DNA of 41,548 nt from a virus, in IMG/VR virus record IMGVR_UViG_3300049927_000157, positions 1-41,548 of that record; one strand, 5' to 3'. The notes below the pieces were generated by a model. The model worked only from the letters and a program-made list of their open reading frames with translations. It did not search any database and was not told the origin of the DNA. Shown here in pieces: positions 1,436 through 40,578 of the stretch; position 1 is the stretch's first letter, and the number at the start of each line of letters is the position of its first letter. Position numbers and translations under genes: made by a program.

Positions 1436-1657
1436 CTACAGCGAGAAGGTCTTGCTCCCGGACAGGATCACGTTGTGCTGCTGGGTCGCGGGCGGCGTGT
1501 TGTCGACCTTATGGTCGCGCGCAGCCGCGTCTCCCCACTTCTCGGCGGCCTTGCGGTCGCTGAGGCCCTCTGTCGCGTCGACGGTCACGCCGTCGAAGAG
1601 CAGGAACGCGCTGACGTTGCCCGGCGCGCCTGAGTACGTGAGACGGTAGTGCATCAT
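1436..1657 (-). CDS. Small hypothetical protein
   Basis: 73 aa. Two consecutive ATG codons (1657 and 1654) follow AAGGAGGC. The first overlaps the upstream TGA as ATGA; the second has the better spacing from GGAGG, so true length is 72 or 73 aa. The sequence starts as beta strands (HYRLTYSG, VSAFLLFDGVTVD), then an acidic/alanine-rich helix and a polar tail. No family recognised. It lies directly downstream of the thymidylate synthase-family gene. Confidence 0.65.
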   Translation of the reverse strand: MMHYRLTYSGAPGNVSAFLLFDGVTVDATEGLSDRKAAEKWGDAAARDHKVDNTPPATQQHNVILSGSKTFSL

Positions 1658-2544
1658 GCCTCCTTCGTGTACTTGGACAGGACGTTGTCGTACAGGAGCT
1701 CGCTGGTGGTCACGTACCCACTCGGCAGCTCGCCCCTCAAAAGCTTGGCCGCGCGCTCCCTTATCTCCGGCCACGTGTCGCCGACGCGGCCGACTCCCCA
1801 CGGGCGCACTGCAGGCTCGAAGTCCGCGGCGTACTGTAGCTCGCCGGCGCGCTCCCAGTGCTGCTCGTACAGGTGGAGGCTGTTCGCGGTGTGCACGTAC
1901 TTGCCGACGTCCGCGCCTAGCGCGTTCGCGAGCGAGCACTGCACCTGCGCGAACTGGAAGAGGTCGTACGGGAGGCCGTGCCACGCGTCGTTCGACCGCA
2001 TGTGCACGGCCATGTGCAGCTCGCGCGGTGCGCGGTTCGGGTCGCTGGGCGAGTCGCGCAGGAGGAACTGGAGCCCGATCGTGCACAGGTTGCTGGCCTG
2101 CCCGGCCGTCATGTCGTCAGCGTGCCAGATGAGCGCGACGGCCTGGCGACAGTCCGGGTCCCCCTGGAGCTTGTCGACGATCGTGCCGAGCTGGTCTGAC
2201 TCGCCGAGGCGCTCGCCGTAGGTCGGCACGTCGTCCGCCCACCTGGAGCTCGGCTTGGGGAAGCCGCTCGAGATGTCGGCCATCAGGCCGGGGGCGCTCA
2301 CGCCGCTGATGCACTGCAGCGCCTCGCCGTAGCCGATCGCCGGCAGCAGCCCCTTGCGGCCGATCCCGTCAGCGACCGTGTCGGTCGGGCTGTCGATCGT
2401 GATGCGCGCGAACAGGATCTCCTTCGTGCGCTTCCCGCGTGGCGCCGTCTCGACGCCGTCCTCGAGGATCGCGCTGCAGGCCTGGAGCACTGCCTGGCGT
2501 CCGCTCCCCGCTCGTATGTCGCAGCCGAAGGCTTCTGATCTCAT
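1654..2544 (-). CDS. Thymidylate synthase-family enzyme, dCMP-type active site (putative dCMP hydroxymethylase/methylase)
   Basis: 296 aa, ThyA fold. Matches to the family: Glu74 in the conserved helix, GDPDCRQ (phosphate-binding Arg loop), catalytic Cys154 in NLCTIG, MRSND (Arg183, Asp186), GLPYD, and HLY (His224, Tyr226), which binds the ribose 3'-OH. The residue matching E. coli ThyA Asn177, which reads uracil, is Asp194. The same Asn-to-Asp change is the hallmark of T4 dCMP hydroxymethylase and converts thymidylate synthase towards dCMP. The likely reaction is therefore transfer of a one-carbon unit to dCMP. ATG at 2544 chosen; GTG at 2583 would add 13 residues, and neither has a clear ribosome binding site. 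First gene of the leftward operon. Confidence 0.8.
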   Translation of the reverse strand: MRSEAFGCDIRAGSGRQAVLQACSAILEDGVETAPRGKRTKEILFARITIDSPTDTVADGIGRKGLLPAIGYGEALQCISGVSAPGLMADISSGFPKPSSRWADDVPTYGERLGESDQLGTIVDKLQGDPDCRQAVALIWHADDMTAGQASNLCTIGLQFLLRDSPSDPNRAPRELHMAVHMRSNDAWHGLPYDLFQFAQVQCSLANALGADVGKYVHTANSLHLYEQHWERAGELQYAADFEPAVRPWGVGRVGDTWPEIRERAAKLLRGELPSGYVTTSELLYDNVLSKYTKEA

Positions 2545-22253: not shown

Positions 22254-22259
22254 TAATAT
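22254..22259 (+). promoter_or_regulatory. Leaderless-type -10 hexamer, major capsid gene
   Basis: TAATAT, then 7 bases to ATG 22267; no Shine-Dalgarno. The closest to the TATAAT consensus among the set, with the same hexamer and spacing as at 25355. Confidence 0.65.
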
Positions 22260-22266
22260 CCCCGCC

Positions 22267-23196
22267 ATGAGCTACAACGAGACGATCGACAGGACGGGCG
22301 CGGAAGCGCTCATCCCGGAGGAGTTCAGCAACGACGTGATCTCGGCAGCGACCGAGGCCTCGGCGGCCCTGAACCTCTTCCCGCGGGTGACCATGTCTTC
22401 CAAGACTCGTCGCCTGCCGGTTCTCGCAGCCCTCCCGGTCGCGTACTGGGTCGACGGCGACACCGGCTACAAGCAGACCACGAAGGCCGAGTGGGAGAAG
22501 AAGATCCTCACAGCTGAGGAGCTCGCCACGATCGTCCCGATCCCGGAGGCCGTGCTCGACGATGCGGACTTCGACATCTGGGGCGACCTCAAGCCTCGCA
22601 TCGCGGAAGCGATCGGGCGCCTCGTCGACTCCGCGGTGCTCTTCGGCACCGACAAGCCGGCGTCCTTCGGGCAGGACCTGTACCACGGCGCGGAAGGCGC
22701 CGACAACGTCGCGTACCTCGGGACCAACTCCCAGGGCGACGGCGGCGTTGCGCAAGACCTGAACGACGTGATGGCGCTGGTCGAGGCCGACGGCTTCGAC
22801 GTGAACGGCTTCATCGCGCCCCGCACGTTCCGCGCCATCCTTCGTGGCGCACGCGACACGCTCGGGCAGAAGCTGCTCGACGTCTCGCAGAACGAGATCG
22901 AGGGGCAGCCGCTGCGGTACGTGGCGTCTGGCCTGTGGGACAACGCCGACCTCTTCGCCGGCGACTTCACGAAGGGCGTCCTCGGCGTCCGCCGCGACAT
23001 CAGCTACAAGATGCTCACGGAGGCCGTCATTCAGGACCCCGCCACGGGTGACATCGTGTACAACCTCGCACAGCAGGACATGGTCGCACTTCGCGTGACC
23101 TTCCGCTGCGCCTGGCAGGTCGCGAACCCTGTGACGCGCTCGAACCCGGACGAGGCCACGCGCTTCCCGTTCGCGCTCCTGCACGCACAGAGCTGA
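22267..23196 (+). CDS. Major capsid protein (HK97 fold)
   Basis: 309 aa. Typical HK97-type sequence: IPEEFSNDVISAATEASAAL, hydrophobic strand LPVLAALPVAYWVDGD, IVPIPEAVLDDADFDIWGDL (spine helix region), IGRLVDSAVLFGTDKP, and a C-terminal beta region with RVTFRCAWQVANP. No separate protease gene or prohead propeptide recognised; the scaffold is a separate gene (17521). Followed by a strong hairpin terminator. Confidence 0.92.
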   Translation: MSYNETIDRTGAEALIPEEFSNDVISAATEASAALNLFPRVTMSSKTRRLPVLAALPVAYWVDGDTGYKQTTKAEWEKKILTAEELATIVPIPEAVLDDADFDIWGDLKPRIAEAIGRLVDSAVLFGTDKPASFGQDLYHGAEGADNVAYLGTNSQGDGGVAQDLNDVMALVEADGFDVNGFIAPRTFRAILRGARDTLGQKLLDVSQNEIEGQPLRYVASGLWDNADLFAGDFTKGVLGVRRDISYKMLTEAVIQDPATGDIVYNLAQQDMVALRVTFRCAWQVANPVTRSNPDEATRFPFALLHAQS

Positions 23197-23221
23197 TCGA
23201 CCTGACACGACAGCAGTAACG

Positions 23222-23251
23222 GTAGGGGCGCTCAGGGATGGGCGCCCCTAC
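23222..23251 (+). terminator. Hairpin terminator after the capsid gene
   Basis: GTAGGGGCGC (23222-23231) and GCGCCCCTAC (23242-23251) form a perfect 10-bp GC-rich stem with a 10-base loop, 25 bases after the capsid stop, followed by TATT. The 3' arm overlaps the TACTAT hexamer of the next gene, so termination and re-initiation meet here. Confidence 0.75.
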
Positions 23252-23254
23252 TAT
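23249..23254 (+). promoter_or_regulatory. Leaderless-type -10 hexamer, glycosyltransferase gene
   Basis: TACTAT, then 6 bases to GTG 23261; first two bases lie in the terminator arm. Confidence 0.5.
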
Positions 23255-23260
23255 TCGCGG

Positions 23261-23998
23261 GTGGAACACGAGCTCTGGCTGGTCACGCCGGCATTCCAGC
23301 GCCTGGCGATGACCGCCGTCTGCCTCAGGCAGCGCCGCGAGCTTTGCGACGCACTCTCCGACGCCGGCATAGCGGCCACGTGCGTCGTCGTGGCCAACGA
23401 CGAGAACCTGGAGCTGGCCGCAGAGCTGGGCTTCCACACCGTCGAGGTCAACAACTCGTGGCTCGGGCGCAAGTTCAGCGCCGGCTACAAGTACGCGCTC
23501 GCGAGGGGCGCGACCCACCTGATGCCGATCGGCTCCGACTCCTGGATGGACCCGGCCGTCGTCCTCGCGCTCGACCTCTCCCTGCCCGTCCTCTGGGGCA
23601 CCGAGCGGCTGACCTCGGTCCGCCCAGACGGCCAAGAGCGGCTGGAGCTGAGATTCCGCAACACCATAGGCTTCGGGATCGCCTCGGTCTATCCCAGGGC
23701 CTCGATGGCCGACGTGCCCTACCCCTGCGCGCCGAACATCAAGCGCGGCTGCGACACGTCGACCTACAACCGCACCGCTCGAGCCAAGGGAATGGAGACG
23801 CGCTACAGCGACGTCCACCCGCACGAGTACACGGACTTCAAGTCGCCAGACGTCCAGGTCACGAAGTACGACGTGCTAAAGGCTCGCTGGCGCAGGAACA
23901 CTGTCAAGAGCGTGACCGGCGACGAGGTCTTCGACGGGCTGGTCCCGACGTACGGCGCCGAGCTAGTCGCCGAGCTACGTGGCGTGTATGGACTCTGA
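23261..23998 (+). CDS. GT2-like glycosyltransferase (GT-A fold)
   Basis: 245 aa. N-terminal nucleotide-sugar-binding half: LWLVTPAFQRLAMT, CVVVANDENLELAAELGFHT, then NNSWLGRKFSAGYKYALARG and MPIGSDSWMDPA, where GSD replaces a classical DXD metal motif (Asp93). The overall pattern fits family 2 glycosyltransferases. The C-terminal half has Trp/Arg-rich acceptor-binding candidates. Directly follows the capsid gene terminator and overlaps the acetyltransferase-like gene by 11 bases, so it heads a three-gene sugar cassette. Donor sugar and acceptor are unknown. Confidence 0.75.
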   Translation: MEHELWLVTPAFQRLAMTAVCLRQRRELCDALSDAGIAATCVVVANDENLELAAELGFHTVEVNNSWLGRKFSAGYKYALARGATHLMPIGSDSWMDPAVVLALDLSLPVLWGTERLTSVRPDGQERLELRFRNTIGFGIASVYPRASMADVPYPCAPNIKRGCDTSTYNRTARAKGMETRYSDVHPHEYTDFKSPDVQVTKYDVLKARWRRNTVKSVTGDEVFDGLVPTYGAELVAELRGVYGL

Positions 23999-24620
23999 GA
24001 CCCGGCGCGCATTCGTCGGCCTCGAGCCGGGGTGCACAGACGCGTGCGCGACCCACGTCGCACGCGAGTACGGTGAGAAGTCCTTCTACCACTCGCCCAG
24101 GCACCCGCTATCGCTGGTCGACCTACCAGCCGCCGGCACGAGGGTGTCGCGCTACAACTCGCGCCGCTGCGAGCGCCTCGGCTACCGGCACGAGATCATC
24201 GACCGCGCCGACTGGGCAGACGACCTGCACGCGCTCCGCTCCTCAGCGCCAGAGCGCCAAGGGCGCGCAATGCCGCTCGCCTACCTCGAGCGCCAGGAGT
24301 ACGCGCACGACATCCTCTCCGGCTGCCAGCAGCACACAGCCGTGATCCACGGCGTAATAGGCGAGGACGGGCACCTGGCCGCGTACGCGCAGGTCGTGCA
24401 GTCGTCGGAGGTGGCCAGGGTCAACACGATCCTCGGGCACGACGCCAGGATGCGCGACGGTGTGGTCTGGCTCCTCGTGCGATCGTTCCTCGACTGGCAC
24501 CAAGCTAGGGGCGCGACCTTCGGCCTCTACTACACGCACGCGTCCGGGCACGGCGACGGGCTGCGGTACTTCAAGGAGCGCAACGGCTTCTATCCCGCCA
24601 CGGTAGAGTGGGCGCTGTGA
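23988..24620 (+). CDS. GNAT-like acyltransferase
   Basis: 210 aa. YNSRRCERLGYRHEIIDR and the central strands (HTAVIHGVIGEDGHLAAYAQ, VARVNTILGHDARM) followed by VVWLLVRSFLDWHQARGATF and RYFKERNGFYP fit an N-acetyltransferase (GNAT) fold, with the last part resembling the acceptor end of the fold. No classic Q/RxxGxG/A loop is obvious, so the family assignment is moderate. ATG 23988; coupled by GTGA to the deacetylase gene. With that enzyme it could exchange acyl groups on an amino sugar. Confidence 0.6.
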   Translation: MDSETRRAFVGLEPGCTDACATHVAREYGEKSFYHSPRHPLSLVDLPAAGTRVSRYNSRRCERLGYRHEIIDRADWADDLHALRSSAPERQGRAMPLAYLERQEYAHDILSGCQQHTAVIHGVIGEDGHLAAYAQVVQSSEVARVNTILGHDARMRDGVVWLLVRSFLDWHQARGATFGLYYTHASGHGDGLRYFKERNGFYPATVEWAL

Positions 24621-25351
24621 ACGAGTGCGCGCCATTCTCCCCCAGCGACCTCGCCGAGCTCGACCACCAGATCCTCGCGCCCGCGGGCGCTGTCATCCCG
24701 TGCCGCGAGGCGTTCTCAGGCAACCTGCGCTCCGATACGGTCGTGCTCAGGCACGACGTCGACGCGAACGAGGGGTCGTTCCAGTGCGCGGTCGACCTAG
24801 CGCGCTGGGAGGCGGACCGCGGCTACAGGTCAACGTACTACATGCTCCACACCGCGCCGTACTGGATGGCTAAGGGCTTCTACCACGGCGTGCGCGAGAT
24901 AGCCAGGCTCGGGCACGAGATCGGCATCCACGCGGACGCAGTCGGGTTCGCCGTGGAGTTTGGCGGCTCGCCGGACGAGATCCTGCGCCAGGCGCTGGAC
25001 GAACTCAGGCGCTCGGGTGTGGTCGTCACAGGCGTGGCGGCGCACGGCAATGCGCTGTGCAGGAACGGCTCGCGGCTACTGTTCGTGAACGACGAGCAGT
25101 TCCTCGACTGCCCGCGGCCGGAGGCCGGAGCACCAGGGCGCACAGTCTGCGGCGTCGCGCTCGACCCACGGCCGCTCGCCAGCTACGGACTGGCGTACGC
25201 CGCGGAGCGCATACCACACGGCTGGAGGCTGAGCGACAGCGGCGGCCGCTGGTCTGTCCCGTTTGCTGAGGCGGCAAACAGTCTCGCAGAGGGCGACCGC
25301 GGGCAGCTTCACTTCCTCATGCACCCAGACCACTGGACCCGGGCCCTCTGA
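24617..25351 (+). CDS. Polysaccharide deacetylase-like (CE4/NodB homology) protein
   Basis: 244 aa. NodB-type features: VVLRHDVDANEGSF (motif 1, HDVD at about 46-49), LGHEIGIHAD (His at about 100 and 105, metal ligands), VAAHGNAL and, near the C-terminus, FLMHPDHW. These carbohydrate esterase 4 relatives remove N- or O-acetyl groups using a metal Asp-His-His triad. No signal peptide, so it acts in the cytoplasm, unlike most wall deacetylases. GTG start overlapping the GNAT stop (a TAGAGT hexamer also sits 7 bases before). Confidence 0.75.
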   Translation: MNECAPFSPSDLAELDHQILAPAGAVIPCREAFSGNLRSDTVVLRHDVDANEGSFQCAVDLARWEADRGYRSTYYMLHTAPYWMAKGFYHGVREIARLGHEIGIHADAVGFAVEFGGSPDEILRQALDELRRSGVVVTGVAAHGNALCRNGSRLLFVNDEQFLDCPRPEAGAPGRTVCGVALDPRPLASYGLAYAAERIPHGWRLSDSGGRWSVPFAEAANSLAEGDRGQLHFLMHPDHWTRAL

Positions 25352-25354
25352 CCG

Positions 25355-25360
25355 TAATAT
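25355..25360 (+). promoter_or_regulatory. Leaderless-type -10 hexamer, gene 25368
   Basis: TAATAT, then 7 bases to ATG 25368; identical hexamer and spacing to the capsid gene. Confidence 0.65.
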
Positions 25361-25367
25361 TCAGGGC

Positions 25368-25736
25368 ATGACGGTCCTCACGTCGCAACAGCAGCTGGAG
25401 CTAATGCTCGCGAACACGCTCCAGCCGGTCCTTGACCAGGACGCGCTAGACACGCTGCTCGCCGACGCGCAGATTCGCGACACGCACGGCCGGTGGGTCG
25501 ACGATCCAGACTACGTGGAGACGTACGACCTCAACCGCGCCGCCGGCAAGGGCTGGCGCATCAAGGCCGGCATGGTCGCCGCCGACTACACGATCACGGT
25601 CGAGGGCCGCGCCCTGAACCGCGCCGAGATGATCGAGCACTTTCTCACGATGGCGAAGCAGTACGAGAAGAAGGCCGGCGTGCGCAGTGCCAAGCTGACG
25701 GACGACGCCGACCGAACGACTCTCTGGACCCGGTGA
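25368..25736 (+). CDS. Head-tail connector (adaptor) protein
   Basis: 122 aa. Helical N-terminus, then NRAAGKGWRIKAGMVAADYT and a long charged helix (IEHFLTMAKQYEKKAGVR). Size and place directly after the capsid module and before tail-completion genes suggest the adaptor ring on the portal. Assigned by synteny. Confidence 0.6.
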   Translation: MTVLTSQQQLELMLANTLQPVLDQDALDTLLADAQIRDTHGRWVDDPDYVETYDLNRAAGKGWRIKAGMVAADYTITVEGRALNRAEMIEHFLTMAKQYEKKAGVRSAKLTDDADRTTLWTR

Positions 25737-25737
25737 C

Positions 25738-26118
25738 ATGCTGCACGACTGGGAGATCGCACGCGCTGCGACCGAGCTCGCCCGCACGATGCCGGACCTC
25801 TGTGACATCTACCGCCGGTCCGGCGGCGATGGCTTCGGCGGCGGCGGCTCTGACTTCGGCGACCCGCACGCTGAGGGCGTCGCGGTGAGCGTCGAGCCAC
25901 TGGCAGTCGGCCCGTTCAAGGACCACGTCGGCAGCGCCGGCCGCGAGTTCACAGACGAGGTGCAGTTCGAGCTCGCGTTCCCGCTCGGCACTGACGTCGA
26001 GGACGGGGACATGATCGACGTGAGCTCGATGGGCGACGCGCAGATCACCGTGCGCATGGTCGAGCACCCGGAGTCCTGGGACATGATGGTCAAGGCGCAG
26101 GGGACGCTCACGCGATGA
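25738..26118 (+). CDS. Head closure/stopper-like protein
   Basis: 126 aa. A helix (WEIARAATELARTM), a Gly-rich loop (GGDGFGGGGSDFG) and a beta barrel-like part (VAVSVEPLAVG, VQFELAFPLGTDVEDGDMID, AQITVRMVE). SPP1 gp16-like stoppers have this size and character. Overlaps the next gene by ATGA. Confidence 0.6.
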   Translation: MLHDWEIARAATELARTMPDLCDIYRRSGGDGFGGGGSDFGDPHAEGVAVSVEPLAVGPFKDHVGSAGREFTDEVQFELAFPLGTDVEDGDMIDVSSMGDAQITVRMVEHPESWDMMVKAQGTLTR

Positions 26119-31220: not shown

Positions 31221-32428
31221 TCCACCCGCTATACCGCGTGCGTGTGGCCTGGGGCGACTACGTGCGACCGACGCACTTCAGGGTAGGGCGCTCGACGATC
31301 GGCGGCACCGACGAGATATTCGCGAGCGACGCGTGGAGCATCGACTTCCTCGGCTCGGACGACGACGTGACTGACGACGTTAAGACCGCGGTGCTGCAGC
31401 GCAAGCTCTCAGCCGACGGCACAGTGGACGGGAGGCTCGACCTCACGTTCAACGACCCGTGGCCAGGCAAGTACAACTCGCGCAACCCGGCCTCGCCGCT
31501 AACCGGACTCATCCTCCCGATGCGCCGGTGCCTGGTCGAGGTCTCGTTCGACGCGGGCGGCACGTGGGACTCGCTCTTCGAGGGCTTCCTGGACGACGCG
31601 TCGTCGACCCCAGACTGGGACGCGTCGGAGTCGAAGCTCTCCTTCCGCGACGGCATAGTGTGGTCCGAGCGCAAGGCCAGCTCCATAGTCATCCCGTCCA
31701 CCGGCGCGACCACGGTCGGCGCCGTGCTCAACCTGATCCACGACGCCATGGGGTGGCCGAGCGGCAGGCGCGACTTCAACACTGGTTCGCGGCTCGCGGA
31801 CTTCAGCGCCGACGGCACTGTCTCCGCCAGGCAGCTGATCGCCAACCTCCTCGCCGTCGACCTCGGCGTCTACTACTGCGCGCGCTCAGGGTACGCGACA
31901 TACCGCGACCGCTACGAGTACGCGCGCCGCGTGAGCGTCGGGTCGTTCACGGACGCGACCGCCTCTGTCCCAGGCGTGTCGCTCTCCACGATCTACAACC
32001 GCGCGATGGCGCAGAAGACCGGCGGCCCGATGCAGACCTTCACGAACATACCGAGCCAGGACGACTACGGCTCTCAGGACGCGGCCACTGTCACCTCGCC
32101 GTGGTTCTTCGACGACAGCGCGGCGCTAGGCAACGCCGCGTGGCGAGTCATCACGCAGGCACAGCCCGCGAGCCCGACGTGGCAGTTCGAGCCCATCACC
32201 GAGGACACGGCCACGCTGAAGTCGATCATCCTCGCGGACATAGACGACCTCGCCACGATGCACCCACCGGGCCTCCCCGCCGACGACCAGTCGATCGAGT
32301 GGGTAGTGCAGAACTTCGGCGGCGGGTCGGCTCACAGGACGTCCTGGAGGCTCCGCGAGCGGGCCCTGAACCCGTTCATCGTCGGACGCTCACTGGTGTC
32401 CGGGCCCGCCGTGGTGGTCCCAGGCTAA
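31217..32428 (+). CDS. Minor tail protein (distal tail/baseplate hub-like)
   Basis: 403 aa. GTG start overlapping the tape-measure stop (GTGA). Beta-rich with RVGRSTIGGTDEIFASDAWS, DGRLDLTFNDPW, EVSFDAGGTWDSLFEGFLDD, and a Trp-rich end. Position after the tape measure fits the distal tail or hub protein that starts tail tube growth and carries fibres. Confidence 0.65.
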   Translation: MIHPLYRVRVAWGDYVRPTHFRVGRSTIGGTDEIFASDAWSIDFLGSDDDVTDDVKTAVLQRKLSADGTVDGRLDLTFNDPWPGKYNSRNPASPLTGLILPMRRCLVEVSFDAGGTWDSLFEGFLDDASSTPDWDASESKLSFRDGIVWSERKASSIVIPSTGATTVGAVLNLIHDAMGWPSGRRDFNTGSRLADFSADGTVSARQLIANLLAVDLGVYYCARSGYATYRDRYEYARRVSVGSFTDATASVPGVSLSTIYNRAMAQKTGGPMQTFTNIPSQDDYGSQDAATVTSPWFFDDSAALGNAAWRVITQAQPASPTWQFEPITEDTATLKSIILADIDDLATMHPPGLPADDQSIEWVVQNFGGGSAHRTSWRLRERALNPFIVGRSLVSGPAVVVPG

Positions 32429-32431
32429 GAT
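32426..32431 (+). promoter_or_regulatory. Leaderless-type -10 hexamer, first fibre gene
   Basis: TAAGAT, then 6 bases to GTG 32438; overlaps the TAA stop of the hub gene. Confidence 0.5.
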
Positions 32432-32437
32432 TCCGAC

Positions 32438-33337
32438 GTGACGACCAGGCTCAACACGATCGCAGACCTCGCCGCCGGCGACGCCATCCCCGAGTCCTGG
32501 GTGGACGCGGTGCGCATCGACGCGAACTACCTGTCGATGCCCGGCGCGACGCTCGCGAGCGCGGCAACCCTGACCATCACGGCGGAGTACCACTCCGTCT
32601 CGGGCACAGCGACGATCGACAACCTCTCAGACGCGCTCGGTGCGGTCGCCGGGCAGCAGGTCAAGCTCTTCACGACCGGCGCCGCGACGATCAGGAACAA
32701 CGGCGCCGGCACGGGGAACATCCGCACCGCCTCGGGTGCCGACTTCGTCGCGGTCGCCAACACGCTCTACTCCTTCTTCTACGATGGGGCCCTCTGGAGG
32801 CAGTTCGCCGCGGGCGGTGGAGGTGGCGCCGCCTCGAGCGTCGTGTACGACAACACGCTCGCCGCGCCGGCAACGAAGCTAGACTCAGGCGCGGTGATCG
32901 TCGCCGGGTGGGCAGCGGTCGAGATCGACTTCTCGTTCAAGTCGGTGGCCGCGGGCACGTTCGACAACGCGTGGATAAACTTCAACGGCGACACCGGCGC
33001 GAACTACGACGGAATCCGGCGCACGTTCACGTCCGGCGGCACGAACGGCGACAACGCCGGCGTCGGAGCCGTGGGGATCCTGATCCCGCAGGTCCCTGGC
33101 GCGACGGGGCTCGCTAGCGCGTACTGCACCGGGCGCATCACGCTCATAAACTACGACAACACGGCGATCCACAAGCAGGTCTCCTGCCTGTCCGTGAGCG
33201 CCGACGGCACGGTCGTCTACCAGCAGATCCTCAGCGGCCGCTGGAAGAACACGGCCGCGATCACCAGCGTGCAGATCGTGGGCGCGGGATCCAACATCGC
33301 GACCGGCGGGCGCCTGATCGTGAGGAAGATCCTGTGA
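32438..33337 (+). CDS. Tail fibre/receptor-binding protein, paralogue 1
   Basis: 299 aa. Shared N-terminal module of three tandem paralogues (LNTIADLAAGDAIPESWVDA, ATLTITAEYHSVSGTATIDN, and NNGAGTGNIRTASG). The C-terminal half differs from the other two: after a Gly-rich linker (AAGGGGGAASS) come strands VEIDFSFKSVAAGTFDNAW and RRTFTSGGTNGDN. The C-terminus is probably the receptor-facing part. Confidence 0.7.
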   Translation: MTTRLNTIADLAAGDAIPESWVDAVRIDANYLSMPGATLASAATLTITAEYHSVSGTATIDNLSDALGAVAGQQVKLFTTGAATIRNNGAGTGNIRTASGADFVAVANTLYSFFYDGALWRQFAAGGGGGAASSVVYDNTLAAPATKLDSGAVIVAGWAAVEIDFSFKSVAAGTFDNAWINFNGDTGANYDGIRRTFTSGGTNGDNAGVGAVGILIPQVPGATGLASAYCTGRITLINYDNTAIHKQVSCLSVSADGTVVYQQILSGRWKNTAAITSVQIVGAGSNIATGGRLIVRKIL

Positions 33338-34230
33338 GCAGGCTCACGGCGATAGCCGACCTTAACAACGGCGACATCATGCCGGAGTCGTGGGTTGACG
33401 CTGTGCGCGTCGACCTCAACTATTCGATGGTCGCAGGCGCGGCGCTCGCCTCCGGCACGACGCTCACGATCACGGCCGCGTTCCACTCCGTCACAGGCGT
33501 AGCGAACATCGACACGATCACTGACTCCCTCGGCCAGGTCACGGGGCAGAGCGTCTTCCTCGTATTCGCGGCGGCCGCGACGGTCAGGAACAACGGCGGC
33601 GGGACCGGCAACATCCGCACGCGCTCCGGGCTGAGCCACATCACTGTCGCGGGGGAGGTCATGGAGCTCGTCTACGACGGCTCGCACTGGATCCAGGTAA
33701 CGTCGCAGCTGATGCAGGACGCGTCGGGCAACGCGGTGCTCCCGGGTGACCTCCTCACGAGCGGCGGCACACTCGCGTTCAGCGGCCTGTACGCTGCCTA
33801 CAACCCGGTGATGGGCGCGTCCGTCACGCCGCCCACGCCTGGCACCGGAGCGGTCTCGCTCGGGCGCTACACGCAGATCGGCAAGATCGTCCACTACCGC
33901 GGACTGTGGGCCATCGGCGCGGGCGGCCCGATCAACGTCGGCTCTGGCACGTACCGCATCCCGCTCCCAGTCGCGGCCAACACCGCGATCGCGGACGCGC
34001 GCCTCGGCGGCTCGGTCCACGCGGTGGACGCGTCCGGCAACGCCTACGCCGCCATCCTCGGCGCCAAGCTCGACGGCACGAACTCCGGGTACTTCGTCAT
34101 CGGCGACGAGAACACCCCGGCGGGCGGGCTGCAGACCGAGCTCGTGATCGACACCACGCACCCGAGCGCCGGCTTCTGGAGCACGAACGGCGGCAGCATC
34201 CGCTGGTCAATCCAGTACGAGGCGGCGTGA
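33334..34230 (+). CDS. Tail fibre/receptor-binding protein, paralogue 2
   Basis: 298 aa. Same N-terminal module (TAIADLNNGDIMPESWVDAV, TTLTITAAFHSVTGVANID, TGNIRTRSGLSHITV). The C-terminal part (YNPVMGASVTPPTPGTG, GLWAIGAGGPINVGSGTYRI) is shared with paralogue 3 but not 1. GTG start in a GTGA overlap. Confidence 0.7.
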   Translation: MSRLTAIADLNNGDIMPESWVDAVRVDLNYSMVAGAALASGTTLTITAAFHSVTGVANIDTITDSLGQVTGQSVFLVFAAAATVRNNGGGTGNIRTRSGLSHITVAGEVMELVYDGSHWIQVTSQLMQDASGNAVLPGDLLTSGGTLAFSGLYAAYNPVMGASVTPPTPGTGAVSLGRYTQIGKIVHYRGLWAIGAGGPINVGSGTYRIPLPVAANTAIADARLGGSVHAVDASGNAYAAILGAKLDGTNSGYFVIGDENTPAGGLQTELVIDTTHPSAGFWSTNGGSIRWSIQYEAA

Positions 34231-35138
34231 GCAGGCTAGCGGCACTCGTGGACCTCGCGGACGGCGACATCCTCCCGGAGTCCTGGCTCGACATCGCCCG
34301 CGCCGACGTCAACTACGGCGTTGTCGCTGGGGGCTCGCTCGCCTCGGCATCGACGCTCACGATCACGTCCGGCTTCCACCAGGTGACCGGCGTAGTGAGC
34401 ATCGACACGATCACGGACCCACTCGGCGCCGTCCCCGGGCAGCCGGTCGTCCTCGCCTTCACCGGCACGACGACGGTCGTGACCGGCACCGGCAACATCC
34501 GCCTGCGCTCCGGCCTCAACTACATCACGCTTGCCGGCGACGTCATGAAGCTCGTCTACGACGGCGCCAACTGGGTGCAGGTCACATCGCAGCTATCGCA
34601 GAACTCGCTCGGGCAGGCGGTCCTCCCGGGCGGCCTCATCCTCGACGGCGGCGCGCTCAACGGGGCCGGGCTCTACTCGGCCTACAACCCCGTGATGGGC
34701 GCATCCGTCACGCCGCCGACTCTGGGCACGGGCGGGTCGTCTGTCGGCCGCTACGCGCAGCTCGGCAAGTACGTCCGCTATCGCGGCAGGTGGTACATCG
34801 GTGCCGGTGGTCCGATCAACGTCGGCTCGGGCACGTACCGCATACCGCTCCCTGTCGCGGCACAGGTCGCGATCACTGACGGCAGGCTCGGCGGATCGGT
34901 CAATGTCTCGTGCCTCACTGGCGGCTTCGGCGGCACGCCGTCAAGCTACGGCGCGGTTATGGGAGCCAAGCTAGACGGCGTGAACTCCGGGTACTTCATC
35001 GTCGGCGCCTTCATCACGATCAGCAACTACGGCGGGTTCGAGACAGAGGGCGCGATCGGTTCCACGTTCCCCGGCGGCACGTTCTTCAGCGCTCAGGGCG
35101 GGATCATCGCCTGGGACATCACGTACGAAGCCGCCTGA
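34227..35138 (+). CDS. Tail fibre/receptor-binding protein, paralogue 3
   Basis: 303 aa. N-terminal module (AALVDLADGDILPESWLDIA) and a C-terminal part very close to paralogue 2 (YNPVMGASVTPPTLGTG, YIGAGGPINVGSGTYRIPLP). Differences cluster in the last 70 residues. GTGA overlap with paralogue 2. Last gene of the late rightward operon. Confidence 0.7.
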   Translation: MSRLAALVDLADGDILPESWLDIARADVNYGVVAGGSLASASTLTITSGFHQVTGVVSIDTITDPLGAVPGQPVVLAFTGTTTVVTGTGNIRLRSGLNYITLAGDVMKLVYDGANWVQVTSQLSQNSLGQAVLPGGLILDGGALNGAGLYSAYNPVMGASVTPPTLGTGGSSVGRYAQLGKYVRYRGRWYIGAGGPINVGSGTYRIPLPVAAQVAITDGRLGGSVNVSCLTGGFGGTPSSYGAVMGAKLDGVNSGYFIVGAFITISNYGGFETEGAIGSTFPGGTFFSAQGGIIAWDITYEAA

Positions 35139-39626: not shown

Positions 39627-39778
39627 GCCGTCGCGATCTTCTCGAGGAGGTCGCAGTGCGCCCCCACCGAGCTTGGGCCGGTGCCACGCTGCGGGAGCGG
39701 GCCGTCGGCGCCCTTCGCCGTTGCGACCCAGTACGAGCCCTCGCGGAAGACGCGGATGACGAACGCCTGGGCCCTCAC
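39623..39778 (-). CDS. Small hypothetical protein
   Basis: 51 aa. GTG 39778 in a GTGA overlap. FVIRVFREGSYWVATAKGAD, then GPLPQRGTGPSSVGAHCDLL: distantly reminiscent of a HicB-like fold but too short to call. Unknown. Confidence 0.5.
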   Translation of the reverse strand: MRAQAFVIRVFREGSYWVATAKGADGPLPQRGTGPSSVGAHCDLLEKIATA

Positions 39779-40578
39779 GCGGCGAGGACTGTGTCGAGGA
39801 ACGCGGGCCAGGACTTGAAGCGCCTCATGATCGAGGACTCCGCGGCCATGACCCCGCCCCGCACGGCGCGCTCGGCGGCGTACCGCTTGCGCGACACTCG
39901 GCCGGTGGGGCAGATCGACAGCAGGATCTCGCGGTGGTCGGCGTCCGTCCAGCGGCGCGTGTTGGAGCCCTTCTCCTTGATGCATGCCACGACCTTGCCG
40001 ATCGCGGTGGCGCACCCCTCGGCGTGCTGCCCGATGCTCTGGCCGCACTCGATGCAGAGGTTGAGCGTGCGCCGCACGTGGGCGTCCCTCTCGAACCTCG
40101 CGTGAACTCTCTGGTCCTGCGTCATCTCGTCTCCCTCGTCGTCATTGTGATTGACGGGGGCCACGATGTCAGCGCCCACCCCCCGGATGAACGCCATGGC
40201 GAGCTCGACGTTGGCCGGCTCGTTCCACCACATGTTGATGCCGCTCGGGTGCGGGAACGTGCATACGCGCCTGCCGCGGCTCTCTCCCCACTCTAGGTAC
40301 GCCCCGCGCCAGCCGTCCGCGGCGGCGACCCGCTTGCCCATGTAGACGAAGGCGACGCGCCTCGGCGTCCTCCTCCACAGCCGGTCTAGGCCGGCCCTCG
40401 CCTCCTGGAGTGGGAAGCTCGCCCCCTTCCCCGAGCGCGCGGGGAAGCGTTGGATGACGTTCGTGCGCGGTAACCCCGCGCCGCCGAGCAGCGCGAGTCG
40501 CCTGCCGGACTGCGTAGTGTTGGCCATGCGGCCGCGGCCAGATGCGTTCGGCGCCTCGCCGACGAGTAGCAACTCCAT
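39775..40578 (-). CDS. Uracil-DNA glycosylase-like domain fused to homing-endonuclease-type DNA-binding repeat
   Basis: 267 aa. N-terminal part (about 1-135): LLLVGEAPNASGRGRM, LLGGAGLPRTNVIQRF, RVAFVYMGKRVAAADG, CTFPHPSGINMWWN, the motif order of the uracil-DNA glycosylase superfamily (family 4-like). The C-terminal part (from about 155) has a CIEC...C Cys cluster and RRWTDADHREILLSICPTGR with SSIMRRFKSWPAFLD, resembling homing-endonuclease-associated repeats. An internal ATG near residue 152 could make the C-terminal part alone. First gene of the leftward repair operon. The fusion is unusual. Confidence 0.65.
   Translation of the reverse strand: MELLLVGEAPNASGRGRMANTTQSGRRLALLGGAGLPRTNVIQRFPARSGKGASFPLQEARAGLDRLWRRTPRRVAFVYMGKRVAAADGWRGAYLEWGESRGRRVCTFPHPSGINMWWNEPANVELAMAFIRGVGADIVAPVNHNDDEGDEMTQDQRVHARFERDAHVRRTLNLCIECGQSIGQHAEGCATAIGKVVACIKEKGSNTRRWTDADHREILLSICPTGRVSRKRYAAERAVRGGVMAAESSIMRRFKSWPAFLDTVLAA

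Follow-up and report, generated by a model that had tools for sequence, protein, structure and literature searches.

A recurrent three-gene set beside a phage major capsid gene as a probable short form of a virion-glycosylation cassette

The window analysed here is a 41,548-base virus record of IMG/VR (IMGVR_UViG_3300049927_000157). Three genes, P1, P2 and P3, fill the whole interval from its major capsid gene to the genes of the connector region, all of them on the plus strand (Table 1). An earlier note, written from the sequence of this DNA, had described three overlapping genes in this part of the virion gene block. Their coordinates were confirmed, with overlaps of 11 nt between P1 and P2 and of 4 nt between P2 and P3, and the trio is bounded by the PF05065 capsid gene upstream and the connector-region genes downstream. 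Alternative upstream starts exist at GTG 23979 for P2 and at GTG 24608 for P3, the latter giving a protein of 247 residues from which P3 residue numbers are counted below. The gene directly downstream of the trio is conserved: about 40 related loci have it after their capsid gene.

Table 1. Features of the capsid-to-connector interval of the window and its flanks.
Feature	Position	Strand	Evidence
Major capsid gene, candidate acceptor	22267-23196	+	PF05065 E 1.3e-26; PHROG 10 major head protein E 1.6e-56
14-bp hairpin, possible terminator, after capsid gene	23221-23252	+	Fold -29.1 kcal/mol, z -4.3; no T run
TACTAT, putative leaderless-type -10 of trio	23249-23254	+	Pattern search
P1, GT-A/GT2-like glycosyltransferase, 245 aa, GSDSW motif	23261-23998	+	37-member family
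P2, GNAT-fold transferase, Fem/MprF-like branch, 210 aa	23988-24620	+	Model, Foldseek, profile comparison
P3, CE4 (NodB-fold) deacetylase, 244 aa	24617-25351	+	Invariant residues, model, PDB matches
TAATAT, putative leaderless-type -10 of next unit	25355-25360	+	Pattern search
Connector-region genes: conserved gene, then weakly Hc1-like gene	25368-26118	+	Weak PHROG 18149 head closure Hc1

The three genes are real. Homologues with invariant residues were found for each of them, and their third-position G+C is coding-like, at 0.87-0.90 against 0.68 overall. In codon usage, however, they are less typical of the phage than their neighbours (0.19-0.30 as against about 0.46-0.48 log-odds per codon), and this lesser likeness to the virion genes suggests that the trio was acquired later.

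The trio was proposed to be expressed from a hexamer overlapping the capsid terminator. The hexamer TACTAT does overlap the 3' arm of the hairpin that follows the capsid gene, and 6 nt separate it from the start codon (GTG) of P1; yet a promoter scan found no sigma-70 pair upstream of P1, and a terminator scan found no T-tailed terminator after the capsid gene, so that promoter and hairpin terminator alike are putative. In a pattern search, TAATAT was found 7 nt ahead of an ATG start both at the capsid gene and at the gene after the trio. By this spacing pattern, the trio looks like a leaderless transcription unit of its own. At 22254-22269, 23249-23263, 25355-25370 and 32426-32440, TA-rich, -10-like hexamers lie 6-7 nt before start codons, which suggests that this phage has leaderless transcripts.

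Elsewhere in the window, a minus-strand gene at 62-688 has a weak match, just above the Pfam cut-off, to proteasome beta-subunits, and another at 39775-40578 (minus strand) a weak match, below the cut-off, to the uracil-DNA-glycosylase superfamily. Three consecutive plus-strand genes of about 298 residues at 32438-35138, after the tail genes, have no PHROG match; they have in common the N-terminal pattern ADL..GD..PESW.D..R.D.NY and are apparently tandem paralogues. No tRNA gene was found in the window.

Searched singly against Pfam, PHROG and PDB sequences, P1, P2 and P3 gave no significant match; a PdxJ match of P1 was at chance level and was discarded. Single-protein scans of viral contigs likewise returned no relatives, and these were recovered only by alignment-based searches. 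By tblastn against 50,697 cultured-phage records, the three proteins were absent, as they were with other family members as queries (from locus L131 for P2 and P3 and from locus L088 for P1). Profile searches of the PDB with the three families gave weak matches only, and the structures of P2 and P3 were therefore predicted.

P1 is, by its family profile, a GT2-like glycosyltransferase. Whereas the window protein itself has no match to PF00535, 4 of the 37 family members do (best 1.9e-07, in L088, above the cut-off), and the best PDB match of the family profile, albeit a weak one (E 0.009), is the GT2 protein 3bcv. Residues G91, D93 and W95, which form the acidic donor-site motif, are invariant. 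No membrane segment was found in either the P1 or the P3 family.

P3 is predicted to be a deacetylase of the CE4 family (NodB fold) and retains the catalytic residues. Its model (pLDDT 96.3) has CE4 proteins as all of its ten best PDB matches, PdaC among them at E 3.3e-5, while no member of the family reaches the cut-off for PF01522 (best member 0.08). Across 40 family sequences, R48, H49, D50, D52, E68, H103, E104, H108, H146 and H239 are invariant, and these include the CE4 catalytic aspartate, the metal-binding aspartate and histidine, and the C-terminal catalytic histidine (D50, D52, H108 and H239, 40/40). The second metal histidine of the HxxxH motif is the exception: no phage member inspected has histidine four positions after H108, and H146 may take its place.

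For P2, the model (pLDDT 93.1) has a GNAT fold, but the description of the protein as a GNAT-like acyltransferase was too general as to its branch. The 25 best PDB matches found by Foldseek all belong to aminoacyl-tRNA-dependent families, including the streptothrisamine synthases Sbb17/Sba18, MprF/LPG synthases and FemX, and the first ordinary GNAT appears at rank 26. Profile comparison gave the same order, with scores of 40.0 for FemAB and 39.2 for MprF (over about 154 columns) as against 30.4 for ordinary GNATs and 25.0 for the PF13480 set. Furthermore, K196 is invariant in 41 of 41 P2 sequences and falls on the FK lysine of Fem proteins in the alignment; a count of residues, and not a displayed alignment, appears to match it to the catalytic Lys305 of FemX (PMC12945691). 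A YK lysine is frequent among PF13480 proteins as well. The glycines of the acetyl-CoA loop are absent from P2 at their usual place; this loop pattern is unspecific alone, strand 4 having matched it in 11 P2 rows, and neither it nor the FK lysine was ever used singly as evidence. Together, model and profiles place P2 nearer to the Fem/MprF branch, whose members mostly use aminoacyl-tRNA, than to the acetyl-CoA GNATs. A firm claim of a tRNA donor is nonetheless weakened on three counts: the 210 residues of P2 make up one full GNAT domain with an N-terminal extension, and not the two domains of Fem/MprF-type enzymes; a comparable lysine occurs in PF13480 proteins; and PF13480 itself is weakly matched by six P2 members (best 0.0017). 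At the level of fold, the three enzyme classes first assigned to the trio (GT2-like, GNAT and NodB-type) hold, and the predicted structures of P2 and P3, two of the three which that note had called for, agree with the latter two.

A search for the same trio in other phage head modules had also been suggested, and such loci are numerous. Using a separate profile HMM for each family, we mapped 43 viral loci with a strong P3 match (the window included, and some of them near-duplicates), of which 40 have P2 and 41 have P1; among the 35 that are non-redundant, with the window removed, all three genes are present in 31. Distances among P1, P2 and P3 are also correlated (Mantel r 0.44-0.58). The cassettes sit in virion modules (capsid, connector, tail) with three different capsid types. 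As a unit, the trio thus recurs together, but it is usually part of something larger, namely an operon of four to six genes comprising a methyltransferase-like gene, P2, up to two more glycosyltransferase genes (GTb and GTc), P3 and P1. In phages with the PHROG 2263 capsid, the order is methyltransferase-like gene, P2, GTb, GTc, P3, P1, following a tail-terminator-like gene, whereas in those with a P22-like capsid it is capsid, P1, P2, methyltransferase-like gene, GTc, P3. The window has no methyltransferase-like gene by that family's profile and no GTb, and its trio would be a short form of this larger cassette. Proteins with Ala/Thr/Ser-rich repeats occur near the cassette in several phages (L127:1875-2849, L091:10484-11575 and L085:7931-9751); it is possible that these are glycan acceptors.

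Several loci depart from these arrangements. In L042, L025 and L033, the capsid gene is directly followed by a P1 relative, and in the first two of these the connector gene comes next, with neither P2 nor P3 in between. The cassette can also be split: on the 47.6-kb contig that holds both L042 and L143, P1 adjoins the capsid gene and P2, P3 and GTc are elsewhere. A PIG-L deacetylase fused to a methyltransferase is encoded at L088:8844-9857, in a phage with P1-type genes beside its capsid gene. No P3 was found in the stretch of L088 examined, and a different deacetylase family appears to stand in its place. In L087, a WbqC gene lies between two P1 genes.

These observations lead us to propose, at a probability of roughly 0.6, that the trio is a short form of a phage virion-glycosylation cassette in which the amine of an amino sugar is exposed by P3 and capped again by P2. 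The scheme that we infer, as regards acceptor, sugar, order of steps, P2 donor and effect on the particle alike, would run as follows: P1, joined in the fuller versions by one or two further glycosyltransferases, would place an N-acetylated amino sugar on a virion protein, most likely the capsid protein or a co-produced tail protein; P3 would remove the N-acetyl group to leave a free amine; and P2 would give this amine an acyl or aminoacyl cap. Co-occurrence in 31 of 35 loci, the correlated distances among P1, P2 and P3 and the retention of catalytic residues all support this reading, as do the GT2 relatives of P1, the CE4 fold of P3 and the Fem/MprF-like fold and profile of P2. The PIG-L substitution in L088, the WbqC gene beside P1 in L087, and the fact that most P3 relatives belong to gene clusters for polysaccharide synthesis (in haloarchaea, Spirosoma and Sphingomonas) also speak for it. 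The virion is favoured as the target because the cassette keeps its position in virion blocks with three capsid types, because GTb weakly matches mycobacteriophage glycosyltransferases, and because of the gene placement in Thibault and Corndog and the reported virion glycosylation of Che8, Corndog and Myrna. Decoration of the virion, one of the functions that the earlier note had offered, is the leading candidate. Against it stand the distance of P2 and P3 from the capsid gene on the L042 contig, the weakness of the GTb match (E 7e-3) and the absence of GTb from the window, the loss of the classical second CE4 metal histidine from P3, and P2-P3 pairs that occur without any phage context on Chloroflexota chromosomes.

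The Chloroflexota pairs bear in particular on a second explanation, in which a host envelope glycan, or a precursor of it, is altered by the enzymes in the infected cell, for example to block superinfection or change a receptor, and the virion is left untouched. P2 and P3 lie side by side in four contigs of Chloroflexota MAGs (L157:6112-8720, L155, L156 and L158), one of which its neighbouring genes, a GroEL-like gene among them, mark as chromosomal, and the pair is once found beside GT4-like genes. P2 is rare in this phylum (4/301 genomes, one of them marginal), with P3 adjacent in the three clear cases, and the two apparently form a cellular pair. Together with the cell-envelope clusters from which WbqC and the P3 relatives come, these chromosomal pairs count in favour of an envelope function. 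On the other side are the retention of the cassette in virion modules with three capsid types and the lack of membrane segments in the P1 and P3 families, and no carrier-lipid or flippase genes were seen in the mapped cassettes. We consider modification of the host envelope unlikely.

Modification of DNA had been raised as well; the cassette would then hypermodify phage bases with a sugar or amino-acid group. The window does encode a protein of the thymidylate-synthase family (1654-2490, minus strand), possibly a base hydroxymethylase, whose best PDB match is the CMP 5-hydroxymethylase MilA (E 1.1e-14). Yet PF00303 occurs in 0/29 records with the cassette or with P1-family genes, many of these records being fragments, and the cassette lies among virion rather than replication genes. 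DNA modification is therefore disfavoured, and we rate it as very improbable.

MshA, MshB and MshD carry out the same three reaction types as are predicted for P1, P3 and P2, respectively, and a small, soluble amino-sugar product resembling mycothiol can be imagined on that basis. MshD is found among the weaker fold matches of P2, and L088 has its PIG-L deacetylase. Such a product would leave unexplained the one to three glycosyltransferases and the methyltransferase-like gene of the cassettes, as well as their position in virion modules, and no MshC-type ligase was seen; there is little likelihood that the trio makes one. Least probable of all is that three unrelated cargo genes occupy a variable slot after the capsid gene, since the range of the capsid-to-connector interval among relatives (about 130 bp to several kb) and the less adapted codon usage of the trio are outweighed by its conservation in 31 of 35 loci, its overlapping genes, its retained catalytic residues and its correlated distances.

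Virion glycosylation by the trio can be given a more specific form, in which an N-acetylhexosamine, attached to a virion protein by P1 and deacetylated by P3, receives on its freed amine an amino acid that P2 takes from charged host tRNA. This form is tentative, and we would sooner doubt it than rely on it; if true, we know of no earlier virus-encoded modification of a virion glycan that depends on tRNA. Use of aminoacyl-tRNA by P2 would tie substrates of translation to the surface charge of the virus particle, and would provide a new enzyme for the modification of glycan amines. More generally, virion glycosylation has been reported for a few mycobacteriophages, with glycosyltransferases and methyltransferases, and what the cassette would add is a predicted deacetylation and a predicted Fem-like capping step. 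Recurrence with three capsid types, combined with absence from the cultured-phage records searched, implies that virion modification may include a sizeable chemistry that has escaped notice.

The best fold and profile matches of P2 are FemX, MprF, Sbb17/Sba18 and Orf11. Its invariant K196 falls on the FK lysine, which PF13480 proteins have too, and the Fem/MprF enzymes possess two GNAT domains to its one. Orf11, from the BD-12 pathway, acylates the amino-sugar compound streptothrisamine with Gly-tRNA as donor (PMC12945691), and thereby offers a precedent for the capping step. P3 shares with the CE4 enzymes PdaC, chitin deacetylases and NodB their fold, the DxD motif, the GHEIGIH motif and the C-terminal catalytic histidine; unlike them, it lacks the second histidine of HxxxH, is cytoplasmic, and falls below the Pfam cut-off. 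The likeness to NodC, NodB and NodA on which the trio was first explained extends to the reaction logic of glycosyl transfer, N-deacetylation and N-acylation, but not to family membership. NodC has a membrane segment, whereas P1 is not membrane-bound; no result links P2 to NodA; and no Nod-family model was matched in Pfam scans of the window proteins and of the P1 and P2 families. Moreover, the nod genes are symbiosis genes, whereas the trio belongs to a virion module.

The closest parallels in genomic setting are the mycobacteriophage sets of Che8, Corndog and Myrna, with similar ones in Thibault and Tweety, where glycosyltransferases and a methyltransferase likewise lie in or near the virion genes. 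In Corndog, a methyltransferase and three glycosyltransferases are located between portal and protease (PMC4351075). Virion proteins of Che8, Corndog and Myrna are stated to be glycosylated in a passage of PMC12363180 that cites Freeman 2023. In Thibault, the slot between capsid and adaptor genes, which is also that of the window trio, holds four glycosyltransferases along with a kinase and a methyltransferase. The only cultured-phage matches of GTb are weak ones (E 7e-3 to 7e-2) to mycobacteriophage glycosyltransferases, for example those of DeadP, Tweety, Dante and Thibault, and GTb of the fuller cassettes may be their distant relative. In the mycobacteriophage regions examined, unlike in the trio, the annotation includes neither a CE4 deacetylase nor a Fem-like GNAT. 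The fuller cassettes combine glycosyltransferase and methyltransferase-type genes within a virion module, as actinophage-type cassettes do, whereas the window has the former without the latter. The window trio would be a recurrent, and within the reach of our searches undescribed, variant of the actinophage virion-glycosylation cassettes.
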